A stretch of 36,455 nt of DNA, from positions 1 to 36,455 of the forward strand of contig QNXS01000035.1 in the NCBI GenBank assembly GCA_003978865.1, given 5' to 3'. The position numbers were made by a program, and so were the translations under genes. Shown here piece by piece: positions 19,361 through 29,777 of the stretch (position 1 is its first letter; every line of letters begins with the position of its first letter). Under the pieces are notes generated by a model. That model saw only the letters and a list, made by a program, of their open reading frames with translations, had not been told where the DNA came from and did no database searches. This DNA comes from Archaeoglobus sp. (GTDB lineage: Archaea > Halobacteriota > Archaeoglobi > Archaeoglobales > Archaeoglobaceae).

Positions 19361-21766
19361 ATGGGTATTAAAATTGGTAATGGAACGTTTGTAATAGACG
19401 AGTTAAGGAACATTACGATAAAAATAGGTCAAATTGTTGGAGAAGAAGAAATAGAAGAGTTTAAAGAAAAACCAGAGGAATTTACAACACCAAGACCACA
19501 CATACTCGACCTTCGTCACTGGGATAGAAAACTCCTAAGTCGCTACGAGCCGATATACGCTCCTGTTCAGGATTTTTGCAATTTGTGTACAATGGGACCA
19601 TGTGAACTGACAGAAAACAAAAAAGGGGCATGTGGTATAGATCTAAGAACTCAGAAAGCAAGAATGAACACAATAACCTGCCTCATAGGAGCCTCAGCAC
19701 ATGCAGCTCATGCAAGGCATCTAATTCACTACCTCTTAGAGAAGTTTGGAAAGGATCACCCAATAGATCTTGGACCGGATATAGATATAACAGCTCCGAA
19801 CATAATGCTTGTATTTGGTATAAAACCAAAAACTGTGGGGGATCTTAAGAAAGTTTTAGATTACGTTGAGCAGGAGATCGTAAGAGTTCTACACACGGTA
19901 CACACGGGACAGGAAGAGAATTACTTAGATTTTGAATCAAAAGCCCTTCATGCTGGTATGCTCGACCATGTCGCCATGGAAGCTGCAGACATAGCACAGA
20001 TTGCGGCTTTTAACTATCCCAAAGGTGATCCTGAAGCTCCCTTAATTGATGTGGGTTTTGGTGTTCTTGAAGTTAGCAAACCAATCATACTGATCATAGG
20101 TCACAACGTGCTACCTGCAAGAAATGTGGATGATTATCTAAGAGAACACGGGCTTGAAAATGAAGTTGAGATAGCTGGTCTGTGTTGTACTGCAATAGAC
20201 ACCTCCCGTTACGATCCAAAAGCAAAGGTGGTTGGCACTTTAAGTTACCAGTTAAGAGCTATAAGATCGGGAATTCCAGACGTTGTTATAACGGATGAAC
20301 AGTGCATAAGAGCAGATACTTTTAGAGAGAGTGCAAAAATGGGTATACCTCTAATAGCAACTTCAGAGGCGTCGGTTAGAGGGTTGCCTGATAGAACTGA
20401 CGATAACCCAGATACTGTAGTAAATGATCTTGTCTCCGGAAAGGTTAAAGGCGTTCTTATAAGAGATCCAGATAAAGTTGGGGAGATTGCAGTCAGGGTT
20501 GCCATTGAGATGCATGCTAACAAATGCAGAAAGTTTGGCAACGATATTCTGAGAGATGTAGAGAAGTGTATATTTTGTATGAACTGTGTCTTTGCATGCC
20601 CCAGCAACTTAAGAATAGATAAAGCCATGAAATTTGCTAAGAATGGGGATTTCAGGTATTTTGAGAAGATTGAAGATTCATGCATAGCTTGTGGTAAATG
20701 CGAACAAGTATGCCCGGCAGAAATAAGAATAGTTGACGTAATAATGAAAGCGACCCACACTTACATGGTTAAAAAGACCGGTAAAATGAGGGCAGGTAGA
20801 GGCCCCATCAGAGACACTGAAATTAGAAAGGTCGGACAACCAATAGTTATGGGAACGATACCGGGAGTTATAGCTCCAATAGGCTGTCCAAATTATCCAA
20901 AATCAAGAAAAGAGGTTGCAGAGATAATAGAAGAGTTTCTAAAAAGAAAATACATAGTTGTCACGATTGGATGTCATGCAATGGATCTGGGTATGTACAG
21001 AGATGAGGAAGGAAAAAGTCTGTATGAAAAGTATCCCGGTGTCTTCGATTCCGGCGGTTTAGCTAACTGTGGTAGCTGTGTTTCAAGTTCCCACATAACC
21101 GGAGCTGCAATAAAGATAGCAGGCATTTTCGCTCAGAGACCACTCTTAGGAAACTATGCTGAAATAGCAGACTACATACTCCACAGAATTGGTGCTGTTG
21201 GTTTGGCATGGGGACCATATAGCCAGAAGGCGTGGAGCATAGCTATGGGTTTCAACAGACTCGGTATACCCGCTGTTGTTGGTCCACACGGTTCAAAGTA
21301 TAGAAGGGGATTGATTGGGAAGGTGTGGAAGAAGGATGCATGGTACGTCTACGATATAAAAACGAGAAAGAAGATGCAAATAGAACCATGTCCGGACTGT
21401 CTATTTGTTGTAGCTGAAACAAAGGAGGAGGCAATAGTTCAGCTTGCAAGACTTTGCATGAGACCTGCAGACACGTACATGGGCAGACAGATAAAGCTGA
21501 CACACTACTTGGAATTATCTAAGAAGTACTTGGGATGTTTGCCCGATGACTGGCATCTTTATGTAAGAACTGAACTTGATTTGCCTACACGAATGAAAGA
21601 GAAACTCCTGAAATTGCTTGAAGACAGCTATGGATGGAAAATAGACTGGAACAGAAAGAAAATAATTGAGGGTCCTGTAAGAGGTTACGATGCGGGTTTT
21701 AATCCAACGATGGTTGAACAGGTTTACGAGAAATATACCGGAGAGAAGTTAGATGATAAACCTTAA
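19361..21766 (+). CDS. cdhA: CODH/ACS complex alpha subunit (Ni-Fe-S CO dehydrogenase)
   Basis: CNLCTMGPCELTENKKGACGID, two ferredoxin motifs CIFCMNCVFACPS and CIACGKCEQVCPAE, GGLANCGSCVSSSH. Confidence 0.96.
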   Translation: MGIKIGNGTFVIDELRNITIKIGQIVGEEEIEEFKEKPEEFTTPRPHILDLRHWDRKLLSRYEPIYAPVQDFCNLCTMGPCELTENKKGACGIDLRTQKARMNTITCLIGASAHAAHARHLIHYLLEKFGKDHPIDLGPDIDITAPNIMLVFGIKPKTVGDLKKVLDYVEQEIVRVLHTVHTGQEENYLDFESKALHAGMLDHVAMEAADIAQIAAFNYPKGDPEAPLIDVGFGVLEVSKPIILIIGHNVLPARNVDDYLREHGLENEVEIAGLCCTAIDTSRYDPKAKVVGTLSYQLRAIRSGIPDVVITDEQCIRADTFRESAKMGIPLIATSEASVRGLPDRTDDNPDTVVNDLVSGKVKGVLIRDPDKVGEIAVRVAIEMHANKCRKFGNDILRDVEKCIFCMNCVFACPSNLRIDKAMKFAKNGDFRYFEKIEDSCIACGKCEQVCPAEIRIVDVIMKATHTYMVKKTGKMRAGRGPIRDTEIRKVGQPIVMGTIPGVIAPIGCPNYPKSRKEVAEIIEEFLKRKYIVVTIGCHAMDLGMYRDEEGKSLYEKYPGVFDSGGLANCGSCVSSSHITGAAIKIAGIFAQRPLLGNYAEIADYILHRIGAVGLAWGPYSQKAWSIAMGFNRLGIPAVVGPHGSKYRRGLIGKVWKKDAWYVYDIKTRKKMQIEPCPDCLFVVAETKEEAIVQLARLCMRPADTYMGRQIKLTHYLELSKKYLGCLPDDWHLYVRTELDLPTRMKEKLLKLLEDSYGWKIDWNRKKIIEGPVRGYDAGFNPTMVEQVYEKYTGEKLDDKP

Positions 21767-21786
21767 CGATTAAACATATATAATCG
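21767..21786. promoter_or_regulatory. Inverted repeat with embedded TATA-like element upstream of cdhC
   Basis: CGATTA-AACATATA-TAATCG immediately after the cdhA stop codon. Confidence 0.4.
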
Positions 21787-21804
21787 AACGTACAAGGTGA
21801 TAGG

Positions 21805-23331
21805 ATGGCGGAAAGAAGAAAGTTGGAAATTCCGGAAGGTGTTAAAGTCAAAGTTAGTCAGGGAGAGGAATATGACTTTCCCGTTGATGTATCTCCAATG
21901 CATGAAGGAGAAAGAATAAGAAAGGGAGATATGTACGTTGAGCTTGCAGGTCCAAAACAGCCAGGTTTTGAATTGGTTATGGCTCTGCCTGCCGAGGATG
22001 TAGAAGACATGAAAGTAACACTTGTAGGAAAAGACCTTGATGAGCTTGAGGAAGGTAAAGCTTATCCATTTGCCATGATATATTACGTTGCAGGAGAGAA
22101 AATAGACAACGATTTGGAGCCAATAATAGAAAGAAGAAATCATGACTTTCAGAATTACATAGAAGGTGTAATGCATCTCAATCAGAGGTACGATATATGG
22201 ATAAGGGTGGGAAAGAATGCTGTTGAAAAAGGTTTGAAAAGCCTTATAACAGTAGCAAAGGCAGTTATGCTGCTTTTCAAGAATGAGATGCCGTTCATAG
22301 AAAAAGTAGAGGCAGTTTATGCAACTGACAGAGAATTTGTTGAAAAAATGCTTAAAGATGTTGCCATTCCCATATTTGAGGAAAGAGATGCAAGAGTTGA
22401 AGCACTTCATGACGAAGATGTAGAAGAATTTTATTCCTGCACTCTATGCCAGAGTTTTGCTCCCTCGGATGTATGTATAATAAGTCCAGACAGACCGTCT
22501 CTTTGTGGTGCCATAACATGGTTTGACGGTAGAGCTGCGGCAAGAGTTGATCCCGAAGGACCAAACAAACCCGTGCCCAAGGGGGAGTTAATTGATAGTG
22601 TAGGCGGTGAGTATAGTGGAGTTAATGAGTTTGCAAAGACTGAGAGCGGGGGAGTAACTGAAAGAATAAAGCTGCATAGCTTCCTTGAATGTCCTCATCC
22701 GTCCTGCGGATGTTTTGAAGTGATAGGATTCTACATGCCTGAAGTGGACGGGATAGGATGGATTCACAGGGGTTATCCTGAACCGGCTCCAAACGGTTTA
22801 ACGTTCTCAACTATGGCTGGTCAAACCGGCGGTGGTAAACAGGTTGTAGGATTTCTGGGTATAGGTATGAGTTACTTCAGAAGTAAAAAATTCATTCAGG
22901 CTGATGGAGGATGGTACAGAGTTGTGTGGATGCCAAAGGAGCTAAAACAGAAGGTACTAAAATATATACCAGAAGATATGAGAGATAAAATAGCAACTGA
23001 AGAGGATGCAAAAAGCATAGAAGAGCTGAGAGAGTTTTTGAAAAATGTTGACCATCCGGTGGTCAAGGGTGTTGTGAGACCAGTCGATGGAAAAAAGATA
23101 ACTGAAGGATGGGTTGAGGAAAGAGAGGAAGTTGAAGAAAGAGAAGAAGTTAGAGAGATAACTCAGGAAGAAGTTCAACAAACACAGATGCCGTTTCCGG
23201 AATTCCAGCAACTTCAGCAGTTTCAGGTGCCGTACATGCAGTCAGGACCAAAAATAAAGTTAGTGATAAAGAACGCTAACATCACAATAGATAAAATAAT
23301 TGTTAAAAGAAAGGAGGAAAATAAGAAATGA
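21805..23331 (+). CDS. cdhC: CODH/ACS complex beta subunit (acetyl-CoA synthase)
   Basis: SCTLCQSFAPSDVCIISPDRPSLCGAITWFDGRAA; FLECPHPSCGCFEV (A-cluster cysteines); Glu/Gln-rich linker then KIKLVIKNANITIDKIIVKRKE tail. Confidence 0.96.
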   Translation: MAERRKLEIPEGVKVKVSQGEEYDFPVDVSPMHEGERIRKGDMYVELAGPKQPGFELVMALPAEDVEDMKVTLVGKDLDELEEGKAYPFAMIYYVAGEKIDNDLEPIIERRNHDFQNYIEGVMHLNQRYDIWIRVGKNAVEKGLKSLITVAKAVMLLFKNEMPFIEKVEAVYATDREFVEKMLKDVAIPIFEERDARVEALHDEDVEEFYSCTLCQSFAPSDVCIISPDRPSLCGAITWFDGRAAARVDPEGPNKPVPKGELIDSVGGEYSGVNEFAKTESGGVTERIKLHSFLECPHPSCGCFEVIGFYMPEVDGIGWIHRGYPEPAPNGLTFSTMAGQTGGGKQVVGFLGIGMSYFRSKKFIQADGGWYRVVWMPKELKQKVLKYIPEDMRDKIATEEDAKSIEELREFLKNVDHPVVKGVVRPVDGKKITEGWVEEREEVEEREEVREITQEEVQQTQMPFPEFQQLQQFQVPYMQSGPKIKLVIKNANITIDKIIVKRKEENKK

Positions 23332-23417
23332 AGATAATTTTAAGTGGTGCAAATATCTATATCGAAAGTATAAGAATTGAAAAATTACCTGAAAATAAAG
23401 GAGATAAGAAGAGGTGA
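23328..23417 (+). CDS. 29-aa micro-ORF similar to the CdhC C-terminal tail
   Basis: ATGA overlap with the cdhC stop and GTGA overlap with the cooC start; AGGAGG upstream; MKIILSGANIYIESIRIEKLPENKGDKKR. Confidence 0.65.
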   Translation: MKIILSGANIYIESIRIEKLPENKGDKKR

Positions 23418-24187
23418 GATGGATAGTTGTAGTTGCTGTAACAGGTAAAGGTGGTACTGGAAAAACTGTATTTGCTGCAATGCTGATAATGTATTTACAT
23501 AAAAAAGGTAGCTTGCTTGCTGTTGATGCTGATCCTGATTCCAACCTTCCAGAAACACTTGGAGTGGGAAAAGTGGAGAAAACACTGGGTGATATTAAAG
23601 AGCTTTTTCAACACACAAGGGATGAAATTAAAGGAGATAAGGAGGTATGGTTTGAAGCTAAAGTATTTGAAGTTATAAACGAGCTCGATAATTTTGATTT
23701 GCTTGTAATGGGCAGACCGGAGGGGGAGGGATGCTACTGTTACACAAACAACTTGCTCAGGGGAATACTCAGAAAGTTCATGCGACACTACGATTTTGTT
23801 GTAGTTGATTGCGAGGCGGGCTTGGAGCACTTTAGCAGAAAAACAATAGATAGGGCAGACTGCATTATAGTCGTTTCAGATACTTCAAAAAAAGGCTTGA
23901 AGACTGCCAAACGGATATCCGAGCTAATGGATGAGCTTGGTATTAGAGCTAAGAAGGCATTAGTTGGAAACAAAATTACAGATAAAAGAGCGAGAGATAT
24001 AATGATGGAGTTTGCGCTCAGAACAGGTTTTGAGTTTCTTGGAGCATTACCGTACGATGAAAAACTTGTAGAATGCGAGATGCTTGGAGTGAGCCTTAAA
24101 GATTTACCCGAATGTGAATTTAAAAGAGAATTTAATAAAGTATTAAAAAGATTTGAACAGTGGTGTTTAGGTGGTAGTAATGCCTGA
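23414..24187 (+). CDS. cooC: CooC-type Ni-insertion/maturation ATPase
   Basis: VTGKGGTGKTVFAAML deviant P-loop, VDADPDSNLPETLG, GRPEGEGCYCYTNNLLR. Confidence 0.93.
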   Translation: MRWIVVVAVTGKGGTGKTVFAAMLIMYLHKKGSLLAVDADPDSNLPETLGVGKVEKTLGDIKELFQHTRDEIKGDKEVWFEAKVFEVINELDNFDLLVMGRPEGEGCYCYTNNLLRGILRKFMRHYDFVVVDCEAGLEHFSRKTIDRADCIIVVSDTSKKGLKTAKRISELMDELGIRAKKALVGNKITDKRARDIMMEFALRTGFEFLGALPYDEKLVECEMLGVSLKDLPECEFKREFNKVLKRFEQWCLGGSNA

Positions 24188-25502
24188 AGGTAAAATAACT
24201 CTTGAAGATATACTCAAATTGCTATCTAAGTATGAAATTAAGGAGCTTGAAGGTGTTAAAATAGAGGGTGGAGACATAGAAATAGAATTTGAAATGGGTG
24301 CATATCCAAACTTTCAGGCTATAGGCATGGAGCTGGGACTTGCGGCATACCACCTTGCAAGAGTTGCTATGATGCTTGGTTTCCCTGTTCAGCAGTTGTT
24401 TGCCCAGCAACAGCCGGCTTATCCAGCTCAAATACCTCAGGTTCCAACTCAGCTGAAAGAAGAAGAAAAGATTGAGTTAATAGAAAAAAAGTTTGAACCA
24501 TACAGACAGGAGTGGAGCGGATACGTTGAGGAAGTTCAACTTGGAGCTACTCCAAAAGAGGGAGGAACAAGAAAGTATACAATAAAACTTGGTGGAGAGA
24601 AAAGTCTACCATTTTACCTGTTTGATGCCGAACAACCACACCTTCCAAGTATCTCAGTTGATGTATTTGATAGAGCTGTTCCACTTCCCAAGGCTATAAG
24701 AACTCATTACGAGGATGTTATGGGTCATCCGGATGAGTGGGCTAAAAAGGTAATCAAAGATTTTGGAGCTGATGCTGTGACAATTCATCTGATAAGCACT
24801 GATCCACTTCTTGATGATACTCCACCTCACGAAGCAGTCAAAACTGTAGAAGAAGTTCTTCAGGCTGTAAAGTGCCCGATAATAGTGGGAGGTAGCGGAA
24901 ACAAGGAGAAAGATCCGGTTCTACTTGAAAAAGTTGCAGAAGTTGCTGAAGGAGAGAGAGTTCTACTCGCAAGTGCAACTCTTGATACGGACTGGGAAAG
25001 AGTTGGCAGAGCTGCAAAGGAGCATGGACACTGCGTTCTGGCATGGACACAGATGGACATAAACAGCCAGAGAACTCTGAACAGATACTTGCTTAAAAGG
25101 ATTGGTTTGCCAAGAGATAGCTTGGTCATGGATACAACAACAGCTGCACTTGGTTATGGACTTGACTACGCTTATACCAATATGGAAAGAGCCAGGTTAG
25201 CTGCTTTAAAGGGCGATGAAGATTTAGCATTTCCAATTTCCAGTGGCACAACAAATGCGTGGGGTGCCAGAGAGGCGTGGATGAAGGAATCTCCACTTGA
25301 AGGAGACTACTCATGGGGCATGAGAGAACACAGAGGACCGCTCTGGGAGATACTTACAGGATTAACACTATCACTTGCTGGAGTTGACATATTCATGATG
25401 ATGCATCCAGTAAGCGTTGCCGTTTTGAAAGAACTCATTCACACTCTTGGAGGTAAAAAGAAGGAAGTGGAGTATGAAGACTGGATTACCTCCGAACTAT
25501 AG
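24180..25502 (+). CDS. cdhD: CODH/ACS complex delta subunit
   Basis: KYTIKLGGEKSLPFYLFDAEQPHLPSISVDVFD; HEAVKTVEEVLQAVKCPIIVGGSGNKEKDP. Confidence 0.95.
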   Translation: MPEGKITLEDILKLLSKYEIKELEGVKIEGGDIEIEFEMGAYPNFQAIGMELGLAAYHLARVAMMLGFPVQQLFAQQQPAYPAQIPQVPTQLKEEEKIELIEKKFEPYRQEWSGYVEEVQLGATPKEGGTRKYTIKLGGEKSLPFYLFDAEQPHLPSISVDVFDRAVPLPKAIRTHYEDVMGHPDEWAKKVIKDFGADAVTIHLISTDPLLDDTPPHEAVKTVEEVLQAVKCPIIVGGSGNKEKDPVLLEKVAEVAEGERVLLASATLDTDWERVGRAAKEHGHCVLAWTQMDINSQRTLNRYLLKRIGLPRDSLVMDTTTAALGYGLDYAYTNMERARLAALKGDEDLAFPISSGTTNAWGAREAWMKESPLEGDYSWGMREHRGPLWEILTGLTLSLAGVDIFMMMHPVSVAVLKELIHTLGGKKKEVEYEDWITSEL

Positions 25503-25513
25503 GAGGTTAAACT

Positions 25514-26932
25514 ATGAAGGTAAAAAGCCCCCTTGAAATTTACAAGTTGCTTCCCGGCACAAACTGTGGAGAGTGCGGATTTGATACGTGTATGAGTTTT
25601 GCTGCTCACATCTTGGATAGAAGCGCAAAAATTGAGGATTGTAAGCCTCTTATCGAACAGGCAAAAAAGAATGATAAAGCTGCTGAGAAATTAAAAAAAT
25701 TAATAGAAATTACAGCTCCTGAAGTGGATGAGGTTGTAATTGGAAAGGATTTAAAGATTGGTGGAAAGGAAGTCCTGCACAGACATGAACTTACTTTCTT
25801 CAATCCTACAGCTTTATTTTTTGATGTATGTGATACTATGGATGAAAAAACAATTGATGAAAGGTGCAGCCGGGTTGTTGAGTATAAGAAGTTCTATGTC
25901 GGAAAGTATCTAACCCTCGACGGAATAGCTGTTAGATGTACTTCAAACAATCCTGATCAATTTGCAGAAGTGGCTAAAAAGGTCGCTGGTTACGGGAAGC
26001 CAATAATTCTCGTAAGTTTGAATGCTGAGTGTATGGAGAAAGCACTTAAAGCCGTTGGAAGTGATAAACCATTAATTTATGCGGCAACTCCAGAAAACTG
26101 GATGGATTTCCTTAAACTTGCCAAAAAGTACAGTGTTCCTGTGGTTGTAAGGAGTAAAGACCTTAATATGTTAAAAAGTCTGGCAGCAACATTTAAGGCT
26201 CATAAAATATCGGTAGTTCTTGATCCTGTTACGGAACCTGCCGGTAAGGGCTTGCAGAGAACTTTTGAAAGAGTTATTCAAATAAGAAGAACGGCTATTC
26301 TTGGTCAAGATAAAGATATAAACTGCCCGATAATGGTTACACCTATTGCCGCTTGGACAGTCGAAGGAGATGATATTGGAAAAATGTACTGGGAAACTGT
26401 TATCGCTGCCCTTTTTATTGTTAAATACGGAGATATAATGATTATACATAGTGTTGAACCTCACACAATAATGCCTCTTGTAACACTAAGAGAGAACATC
26501 TATACTGATCCAAGAACCCCCGTCCAAGTTGAACCGGGATTAAAAGCTATAAACAACCCTGATAAAAATTCTCCTGTTTTAATAACAACGAACTTTGCTT
26601 TAACGTACTATACAGTTGAGAGTGACCTCCAGAGTTCAGGAGCAAGTGGATGGCTTCTTGTGCTTGACACAGAGGGTTTGGGTGTTGAGGTAAGTGTTGC
26701 AGGAGGGCAGTTCGCACCCGAAAAAGTAAAGCAACTAATGGAGGAAACCAAGATAGCTGAAAAAGTTAATCATCGCTACTTGGTAATTCCGGGACTTGCT
26801 GCAAGACTTCAGGGAGCTTTGGAGGATGAAACCGGATGGAAGATACTTGTAGGTCCTACAGATTCAGGAAGACTTAAAGCATGGTTAGAGCAAAATTGGC
26901 CACCCGGAAGCGGAGTTGAGGTGAAACAGTAA
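25514..26932 (+). CDS. cdhE: CODH/ACS complex gamma subunit (corrinoid iron-sulfur protein)
   Basis: LLPGTNCGECGFDTCMSFAAHI 4Fe-4S motif; VLHRHELTFFNPTALFFDV; SGASGWLLVLDTEGLGVEVSVAGGQFAP. Confidence 0.96.
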   Translation: MKVKSPLEIYKLLPGTNCGECGFDTCMSFAAHILDRSAKIEDCKPLIEQAKKNDKAAEKLKKLIEITAPEVDEVVIGKDLKIGGKEVLHRHELTFFNPTALFFDVCDTMDEKTIDERCSRVVEYKKFYVGKYLTLDGIAVRCTSNNPDQFAEVAKKVAGYGKPIILVSLNAECMEKALKAVGSDKPLIYAATPENWMDFLKLAKKYSVPVVVRSKDLNMLKSLAATFKAHKISVVLDPVTEPAGKGLQRTFERVIQIRRTAILGQDKDINCPIMVTPIAAWTVEGDDIGKMYWETVIAALFIVKYGDIMIIHSVEPHTIMPLVTLRENIYTDPRTPVQVEPGLKAINNPDKNSPVLITTNFALTYYTVESDLQSSGASGWLLVLDTEGLGVEVSVAGGQFAPEKVKQLMEETKIAEKVNHRYLVIPGLAARLQGALEDETGWKILVGPTDSGRLKAWLEQNWPPGSGVEVKQ

Positions 26933-26951: not shown

Positions 26952-27341
26952 ATGATGGTAGATGACAATATCATATATGAAAGGTTTGTACTTTTTAGGG
27001 ATTTTTTCTATGATGGTTATTACTATGTAAACGGTGAAAAGGAGTATGCAGAAAAGTTACTGCCAGAAATTGCAGAGCAACTATCTGTAGATTACGACCC
27101 AAAAGAGTTAGAAAAATCTTTGACAGAATTAGCAAAAAAGATTACCAATGAACAGTTACAGGATTTGTTCGCCAAATATAAACCTGAATGTTGTTCATTA
27201 ACAAGATGTAACAAGGATTTCCTTGGCAGATATTATACATATATAAATGGCTCAGGTAATCTAGAGATAAAGGATAGCAGTGAAAAAGTCAGGAATAAAG
27301 CTATAAATGCGATACAGAATCTTAGTGAGAATGGTATATAA
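26952..27341 (+). CDS. Uncharacterised protein, or N-terminal piece of the following broken ATPase locus
   Basis: Open frame ends in TAA 27339-27341; the same frame stays open through to the ATPase ORF. Confidence 0.4.
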   Translation: MMVDDNIIYERFVLFRDFFYDGYYYVNGEKEYAEKLLPEIAEQLSVDYDPKELEKSLTELAKKITNEQLQDLFAKYKPECCSLTRCNKDFLGRYYTYINGSGNLEIKDSSEKVRNKAINAIQNLSENGI

Positions 27342-27416: not shown

Positions 27417-28294
27417 ATGATGGTAGAGCTTGGGTATGTACCAAAAAATCCATCATCAAAAACAATATCAGTTTTATCTGGATATGAGATAGTATGCAAA
27501 GATAAACATTCATACTGGATGTCGATGGAGACAGTTCCAGTTGTAGATGAAGTGTTGCATAAATTTTTACATAGTAGTGATACTGAAACAAAAAATAATT
27601 TTCAGGAGACAATCGACAGGGGACCAATAAAAGTGCCAGATAGTATATTTGACCCAATAATTGGATATGACAAATATAAAATGTCAATGCTCAGAGCTTT
27701 GAGAGCAAAAAAACCAGTACATGTATTACTTGTAGGACCACCAGCTTCTGGAAAGACTTTGTTCATGTTACAGATTTCAAAATATGTTGAAGGTGCAGAA
27801 TATTACAGAGGTGAGCAGAAAATTACAAAGACAGGATTAATCGAGTTTATAATTGACAAAAAACCGAGAATATTACTAATAGACGAAATAGCAGAAGTTC
27901 CAAAAAGTGATAGGCATACGCTTCTTGGTATAACTGATACTGGAATTGTTACTGTGCTAAAACATGATACACGTCATAGAATTAAGGTTGAACAAGGGTA
28001 TGGTGTGCAACAACAGAGGAGCATAAACTGAGAGAGGATTTCAAATCTAGATTTGTAATATACAGGTTTAGCAGATATACGAGAAGTGAGTTTATCAATG
28101 TTGTAAAGCGGTATTTACCATTAGAGGAGGGTGTAGATGAAAGCATTGCAGAGTATATAGCTGAAAGTCTTGCACCGTATACTAGAGATATTAGAGATGC
28201 AATACAAATTTCCAGGATGTGCAAAACAAAGGATGAGATAGATGAGGAGATTGAACTACGGTACAGAGGATACGACGATGAGATATTTCAATAA
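27417..28294 (+). pseudogene. AAA+ ATPase interrupted by a frameshift
   Basis: Walker A GPPASGKT, Walker B ILLIDEIAE in frame 0; after about 27992-28004 the coding signal continues in a frame shifted by -1 (..CATTEEHKLREDFKSRFVIYRFSRYTRSEFINVVKRYL..YDDEIFQ*). Confidence 0.7.
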
Positions 28295-28616: not shown

Positions 28617-29777
28617 ATGAAAATTAAAGAGATAATGTCCTTTCTTTTAATCGTTCTTCTGTGCACGTGTATTTCCGGGTGTGTTGAAAGCGTAAAGTCT
28701 CACAGTAATATAAAGCCTCACAGTAATAAACTCAGCATTGTTGATGACATTAACCTGTTCTCATTTAAACTTCTAAAAGCATGCAAAAGTAAAGGAAATC
28801 AATTTATCTCACCTATAAGTATTGAATTCGCTTTAGCTCCAATAGCTGACGGTGCTGGAGGAAATACAAAAACTGAAATACTTAAAGCTTTGTGTTTGCC
28901 CTCTAATGACTCGGTTAGGAGGCATGATTTTGCAAATCTATACGAGCATCTCAACACAAGTAAAAATTTGACAATAGCAAATGCTCTATGGATACAAAAA
29001 GGATATCCAATAAAGAGAAAATATATGGAGAACGTTAAATACTACCATGCCGAAATTCACTACGTTAACTTTGAATCCGAAAGAGCTGCAAGAGAGATAA
29101 ATGAGTGGATAAGCAAAGAGACTAATGGGAAAATAGATAAAATAGTTAGTAGAATTAATCCTTTAACAAAGCTTGCCGTAACTAATGCCATGTTTTTCAG
29201 TGGAAAGTGGAAGTACATGTTTGAAGAAACTTCAATGAAATTTTACTCTCCAGAAAGCGTAAACAGAGTCAAAGCGATTGTCAGTATTTCCCGCTACAAC
29301 TATACCAACTATAGCGGTATTGAAGCTGTAGAAATACCTTATGCCAACCAAAATTATTCTATGATAATAGTAATGACTAATAACATAAGTTTAGAAATTT
29401 TCAAAAAATTAACAAATAATATGAAAACAAAATTAATTAAACTGTATATACCGGAACTTGAAATTAAAAAGGGCTATGACTTGGAAAAACCACTATCGAA
29501 ACTTGGCATCAAAGTTGCATTCACTCCTAAAGCAAACTTCTCCGGCATATCCAATATGAAACTGTACATCGGTTGTGCAAAGCACAAAACCTACTTAAAA
29601 ATTGACAAAAATGGGACTGTTGCAGCAGCAGCAACTTACATTGGAGTAATTGCCACTGCAATTCCTCAAAACTACAAGGTTGTTAAAATAAACAGACCAT
29701 TCTACATATTCATCGTCAGAAACATGGGCAAAAAGAAACTAATACTGTTCTCCGGAAGGATAGTTACAGTCACGTAG
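28617..29777 (+). CDS. Serpin-family protease inhibitor, predicted lipoprotein
   Basis: Signal peptide with lipobox-like ISGC; NQFISPISIEFALAPIADGAGGNTKTEI, TNAMFFSGKWKYMF, hinge KNGTVAAAAT, NRPFYIFIVR. Confidence 0.92.
   Translation: MKIKEIMSFLLIVLLCTCISGCVESVKSHSNIKPHSNKLSIVDDINLFSFKLLKACKSKGNQFISPISIEFALAPIADGAGGNTKTEILKALCLPSNDSVRRHDFANLYEHLNTSKNLTIANALWIQKGYPIKRKYMENVKYYHAEIHYVNFESERAAREINEWISKETNGKIDKIVSRINPLTKLAVTNAMFFSGKWKYMFEETSMKFYSPESVNRVKAIVSISRYNYTNYSGIEAVEIPYANQNYSMIIVMTNNISLEIFKKLTNNMKTKLIKLYIPELEIKKGYDLEKPLSKLGIKVAFTPKANFSGISNMKLYIGCAKHKTYLKIDKNGTVAAAATYIGVIATAIPQNYKVVKINRPFYIFIVRNMGKKKLILFSGRIVTVT

Follow-up and report, generated by a model that had tools for sequence, protein, structure and literature searches.

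Many anaerobic archaea use the CODH/ACS complex to build acetyl-CoA from CO2, and acetate-using methanogens use it to cleave acetyl-CoA. What holds this megadalton complex together, and what role the unresolved C-terminal extension of its acetyl-CoA synthase (ACS) plays, are open questions (PMC11474084). The locus described here raises a related one: is the 29-codon reading frame (micro-ORF) lying between cdhC and cooC a gene, and if so, what might its product do in the complex? The window, a stretch of 36,455 nucleotides from an Archaeoglobus sp. assembly (contig QNXS01000035.1), contains an Archaeoglobaceae CODH/ACS operon with the order cdhA, cdhC, micro-ORF, cooC-like gene, cdhD and cdhE, all on the plus strand. 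The named genomes closest to it are MAGs of the Archaeoglobaceae, which are heat-loving archaea. Pfam matches identify cdhA (19361..21766), which encodes the CODH alpha subunit, cdhD (24189..25502), which encodes the CFeSP delta subunit, and cdhE (25514..26932), which encodes the CFeSP gamma subunit. The 508-aa acetyl-CoA synthase (beta subunit) is encoded by cdhC (21805..23331; PF03598, PF19436, TIGR00316). Directly 3' of the micro-ORF lies a cooC-like P-loop ATPase gene (23414..24187). Pfam assigns its product to the P-loop NTPases (CbiA/Fer4_NifH), and the name CooC rests on gene position and similarity.

The micro-ORF (23328..23417 including its stop codon, plus strand) runs from ATG to AGG TGA and translates as MKIILSGANIYIESIRIEKLPENKGDKKR, as a sequence-only reading of this DNA had first proposed. 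Its start overlaps the cdhC stop codon by 4 nt (ATGA, 23328-23331), and its stop overlaps the GTG start of cooC by 4 nt (GTGA, 23414-23417). An AGGAGG resembling a ribosome-binding site lies within cdhC at 23312-23317 on the plus strand, 10 nt 5' of the micro-ORF ATG; these signals, too, had been read correctly. The encoded peptide has no family match in Pfam or NCBIfam and no matching chain in the PDB, and our search of the literature on small proteins of the cdhC-cooC operon found no published description of it.

The same reading had aligned the peptide with the C-terminal tail of CdhC, and this alignment holds. Across the whole of CdhC, the top ungapped BLOSUM62 match falls on residues 484-507 (IKLVIKNANITIDKIIVKRKEENK; 23254..23325, plus strand) with a score of 51, which was reached against CdhC in 0/20,000 shuffles of the micropeptide. 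An HMM built from fused CdhC tails only was run on 17,251 ORFs, taken from 120 loci and both strands. Apart from CdhC itself, its matches at E <= 0.004 were 31 ORFs, all of them micro-ORFs or stand-alone tails; most micro-ORFs reach this value, while the first unrelated ORF appeared at E 1.8. Profile-profile comparison of tails and micro-ORFs with hhalign gives a probability of 97 and an E-value of 1.5e-10, and none of 120 column shuffles did as well. Within its family the window copy ranks with the most diverged; on its own it reaches E 0.05 against the tail HMM and E 6.5e-10 against the micro-ORF HMM. Judged by these comparisons, the micropeptide and the C-terminal tail of CdhC are genuinely homologous. 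The hhalign match, together with the conservation and codon selection described below, supports the idea that the micropeptide represents a stand-alone copy of the beta-subunit tail.

Conservation was assessed among genomes of the window's own phylum, for which the labels of families, genera and genomes (f-, g- and G-) are arbitrary handles. A profile search over 55 whole Archaeoglobaceae genomes, with E <= 1e-8 taken as a strong match, finds 37 with the micro-ORF at the junction of cdhC and cooC, drawn from 9 of 13 genera and with one strong match each; in G253, which has two cdhC loci, one micro-ORF adjoins each. No strong match lies away from the junction in any of the 55 genomes, and the second-best profile match per genome is usually the CdhC tail itself. 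The position between cdhC and cooC is kept in every relative carrying a micro-ORF, and the junction ORF is 24-43 aa long in most Archaeoglobaceae (for example MEEEVKKVKLILKGAQIHIPELIIEEEE, MEEKKEERKFIKITLKGAEIKVSEVIVEE and MKEDKQDSGKFKIILKGAKIYIEKVKFEEE). Genome G139, which we take to be Archaeoglobus fulgidus, carries the micro-ORF, and the micropeptide is probably present in that laboratory organism. The A. fulgidus cdhCDE genes are given as AF0376-AF0379 (PMC3949148). If, as the order of the genes suggests, these four tags correspond to cdhC, cooC, cdhD and cdhE, no number remains for the micro-ORF.

The spacing of the genes is conserved in a looser sense than the window suggests. The sequence-only reading had made its case depend on the recurrence of both the ORF and its double 4-nt overlaps in close relatives; the ORF and its tight spacing are indeed conserved, but the exact double overlap is not universal, and the start of the micro-ORF relative to the end of cdhC varies among relatives (-3, 0, +1, +4, +5 and +10). 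These offsets bear on the possibility that a conserved -1 frameshift or read-through yields a double-tailed CdhC. The micro-ORF frame of the window is indeed -1 with respect to cdhC, and a slip at AAG AAA would fuse the two; however, no single recoding event fits the range of offsets, and the micro-ORF of each relative has its own start codon. We regard recoding as scarcely credible and reject it because the frames relative to cdhC vary among relatives.

The micro-ORF is absent from genera g4, g6 and g12, from two genomes of the window's own genus (G004 and G005) and outside the Archaeoglobaceae. Parsimony on the CdhC tree accommodates this distribution with one gain and four losses. Within the Archaeoglobaceae it has been lost at least three times (in g4, in g6 and in G004/G005), and it is therefore not essential everywhere.

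Codon-level comparison indicates what kind of constraint acts on the frame. In a codon model on the CdhC tree (28 taxa, 17 codons), the micro-ORF core has an omega of 0.088 (2dlnL of 201 against omega 1), a value slightly biased in favour of low omega by anchoring the core on the conserved motif, and the CdhC tail, used as a control, gives a similar omega of 0.066. Within genera, micro-ORF differences at codon positions 1/2/3 number 78/49/357; genus g5 shows 23 synonymous and 0 nonsynonymous differences, and the window's genus has a pS of 0.73 and a pN of 0.23. The micro-ORF is under strong amino-acid-level purifying selection, on which the earlier claim had also been staked; the refuting outcome that it had named did not come about. 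The 29-aa ORF is a protein-coding gene.

Two other accounts of the junction can be weighed against these data. An ORF that is short and missing in some relatives might have arisen by chance or be the decaying remnant of a tail duplication. Against this stand the 0/20,000 shuffles, the omega of 0.09 and the same junction in 37 genomes, which make such an origin next to inconceivable and refute it for the family; the individual copy in the window may nevertheless be decaying. Alternatively, the ORF might merely hand ribosomes from cdhC to cooC, with a functionless peptide as by-product, as the 4-nt overlaps at both ends and the Shine-Dalgarno-like sequence would suggest. Purifying selection on the amino acids contradicts this account, the sequence is a homologue of the tail, and the exact overlaps differ among relatives, so that a pure coupling function appears highly improbable.

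In other archaea the tail occurs as a protein of its own. Families f8, f9, f19 and f21 have a tail-less CdhC, and directly after cdhC they encode a small protein of its own that bears the tail motif. These stand-alone proteins are 58-81 aa long, with an A/P/T/G-rich or charged linker and the same motif at the end (for example MSDKKPLKLKIKKKESSPTTAAPKAQVSATEHIPQTGGIKLVLKNAKIHIDQVIIRKK), and NCBIfam CdhC models match them over the models' C-terminal positions only. They resemble the Archaeoglobaceae micropeptide in being the same module, free-standing and in the same genomic position. Unlike the micropeptide, which is a bare module additional to a fused tail, they replace the CdhC tail. Judged from these gene arrangements, the CdhC tail is a detachable module that is exchanged between fused and free forms among archaea. 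The bacterial-type CODH/ACS found in the same phylum (G058 and G042; loci L152 and L170) has neither the tail nor the CdhD extension.

Stand-alone tail proteins of f8, f9 and f21 also have in common an N-terminal KLxLKxK-like segment. The tail-less CdhC ends in a winged-helix-like segment, for which there is one weak HTH_24 match (E 0.0012). At loci L132, L133, L136, L137, L138 and L144, the presence of this winged-helix-like end coincides exactly with a tail encoded on its own. The KLxLKxK-like segment might bind the winged-helix-like end of CdhC and so form a split tether. Family f21, presumably Methanotrichaceae, has two tandem tail proteins in 6/6 genomes examined, one of which we take to be Methanothrix thermoacetophila. 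At the f21 loci L144 and L153-L157, each of the tandem small genes after cdhC encodes an A/P-rich linker followed by a CdhC tail module. These tandem genes possibly encode overlooked ACDS subunits in acetate-using methanogens. We considered whether the second Methanotrichaceae-like copy (RGATVHIQEVVI) is especially close to the micropeptide, and rejected this because the micro-ORF profile gives copy 2 no higher a score than it gives copy 1.

Gene position also invites the view that the peptide is a maturation helper, one that would act with CooC in CODH or ACS metal loading, presenting or capping the tail-binding site, and that would be absent from the finished complex. The micro-ORF lies between cdhC and cooC wherever it is found, and the stand-alone tails of f8, f9 and f21 lie there as well. 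The f19 genome, however, lacks a cooC between its stand-alone tail gene and cdhD; where the peptide is absent, cooC directly follows cdhC; and the homology is to the tail of a structural subunit and not to any maturase. We consider a dedicated role in maturation quite improbable.

A related motif is found in a second subunit of the complex. When 234 40-column windows over CdhA, CdhC, CdhD, CdhE and CooC were scanned, the best non-tail match to the tail profile was the N-terminal extension of CdhA (IDELENVQINIGKIVEEEE), with a score of 19.5 against 11.5 for the next; in the shuffling test its score of 19.3 was reached by 0/120 column shuffles. The relation between CdhA and the tail is significant and rests on about 12 aligned columns. 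In the window the CdhA motif reads FVIDELRNITIKIGQIVGE (19388..19444, plus strand). The CODH alpha extension (CdhA 1-30) shares L-[EK]-N-[AV]-x-I-x-I-[GD]-K-[IV] with the micropeptide; it differs in being part of CdhA, where it is conserved in archaeal-type CODH, and in a relation weaker than that between tail and micropeptide. These residues are unmodelled in PDB 8RIU; in Ethanoperedens the alpha N-terminus 1-30 is unmodelled and is thought to stabilise other ACDS subunits (PMC11493965). The N-terminal extension of CdhD, which looks alike by eye, was rejected as a third copy of the motif, its score of 7.0 being reached by 30/120 column shuffles. Small stand-alone ORFs resembling this CdhD extension occur at L132 (after the tail ORF) and at L142 and L149 (between cooC and cdhD), and a CdhD-extension-like ORF, MTEIKLEDLMKIFEGADVAELENVTINGNVEIEATSGGG, matches positions 4-71 of NCBIfam NF003375 (E 8e-9).

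Structure predictions place the module after a disordered linker in CdhC. AlphaFold2 models window CdhC as ordered to residue 438, followed by a predicted disordered linker (residues 439-484, 23119..23256 on the plus strand; pLDDT <50) and the tail (residues 485-505; pLDDT about 50-58). In a 36-aa relative of the micropeptide, the module is modelled with a pLDDT of 82-85 as extended, with no internal strand pairing; such a model is consistent with a peptide that acquires order on binding a partner. In Methanosarcina, the ACS C-terminal extension (~75 aa) is unresolved and of unknown function, with a proposed role in ACS movement, and limited proteolysis or detergent treatment of ACDS results in a truncated beta subunit (PMC11474084). 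By homology, the last ~20 residues of the M. thermophila CdhC/ACDS beta extension (residues 398-472; PDB 9C0S/9C0T) correspond to the micropeptide. Compared with the archaeal ACS extension, the micropeptide is a separate gene, without catalytic domains or a long linker, and occurs alongside a fused tail. Docking peptides are a feature of multienzyme complexes such as polyketide synthases, in which likewise a short conserved motif and a disordered linker position a mobile catalytic domain; the likeness is one of layout, and no sequence relation to the micropeptide is claimed.

Taken with these observations, the reading we favour, and hold to be somewhat probable, is that the micropeptide serves as a subunit of ACDS (CODH/ACS), docking together with the tail of CdhC and the extension of CdhA. 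The tail motif of CdhC, on its disordered linker, would anchor acetyl-CoA synthase in the ACDS complex, and CODH alpha would add a related motif borne on a flexible N-terminal extension of its own. Translated from the cdhC message via coupled re-initiation at ATGA, the micropeptide would dock beside both, with the chains sharing a beta-type contact, and would act as a structural subunit by completing the anchor or making it more stable. Anchored in this way, ACS could swing between CODH and CFeSP and yet stay in the complex. We infer the translation, docking, binding, partner set and anchoring role of the micropeptide from sequence. The earlier suggestion of a possible assembly or tethering peptide of CODH/ACS gains independent support, short of proof, because other archaea show the tail exchanged between a fused and a stand-alone form, because the CdhC tail is predicted to follow a disordered linker, and because the CdhA N-terminal extension carries a related motif.

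The charge of the C-terminus provides a further clue to where the micropeptide may sit. It is basic in the window and its congeners and acidic in other genera. Outside genus g1, micropeptides end acidic (with one neutral exception), CdhC tails end basic or neutral, and the CdhA motif is followed by acidic residues. Because of these differences the micropeptide and the CdhC tail may occupy complementary and not redundant positions, which is only a hint since the micropeptide of the window's genus ends basic. The point matters for a competing reading in which the micropeptide is a decoy or regulator, a free tail that would fill the receptor of the CdhC tail and thereby set how firmly ACS is held or how many copies of it enter the complex. 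Its motif is identical in kind to the CdhC tail and comes from the same message through tightly coupled sites. Operon coupling, however, suggests a fixed ratio and not regulation, the acidic ends of most micropeptides outside g1 against basic CdhC tails suggest a different or complementary position, and Methanotrichaceae-like genomes have both copies free and thus no fused tail to compete against. Competition of this kind strikes us as unlikely.

A broader version of the co-docking model, which we put forward tentatively as possible and not as probable, is that the micropeptide folds jointly with the CdhC tail and the CdhA extension into an interchain beta hub, with one short rung per chain, that holds the megadalton CODH/ACS together. 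Its strands would have been freed in some lineages (the Archaeoglobaceae micropeptide, the Methanotrichaceae-like tandem tails) and fused in others. In either form, conservation and selection make it probable that the micropeptide belongs to the complex that forms or cleaves acetyl-CoA and has been overlooked there, as a very small candidate CODH/ACS subunit missed by gene prediction. One module that is fused, free, duplicated or lost across archaea amounts to a natural experiment, and the micropeptide, the module variants and the second motif copy in CODH alpha together offer a concrete, testable docking model.

Several other features of the window deserve mention. The gap between cdhA and cdhC (21767-21804) holds no cdhB (epsilon subunit) gene, and the sole PF02552 match of the source genome, whose assembly is 77% complete, is a 264-aa ORF on a different contig. 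In the congeners G002 and G003, a diverged cdhB lies immediately upstream of cdhC. The epsilon subunit may have been lost in part of the window's genus. Immediately 3' of cdhE lies a 129-aa ORF without a Pfam match (26952-27341), followed by a possibly truncated 204-aa AAA ATPase-like ORF (27417-28031) with sub-threshold AAA/MCM matches only. Further downstream of the CODH/ACS operon, positions 28617-29777 encode a predicted lipoprotein-type serpin (PF00079, E 1.5e-81), a kind of protein that is unusual in archaea.
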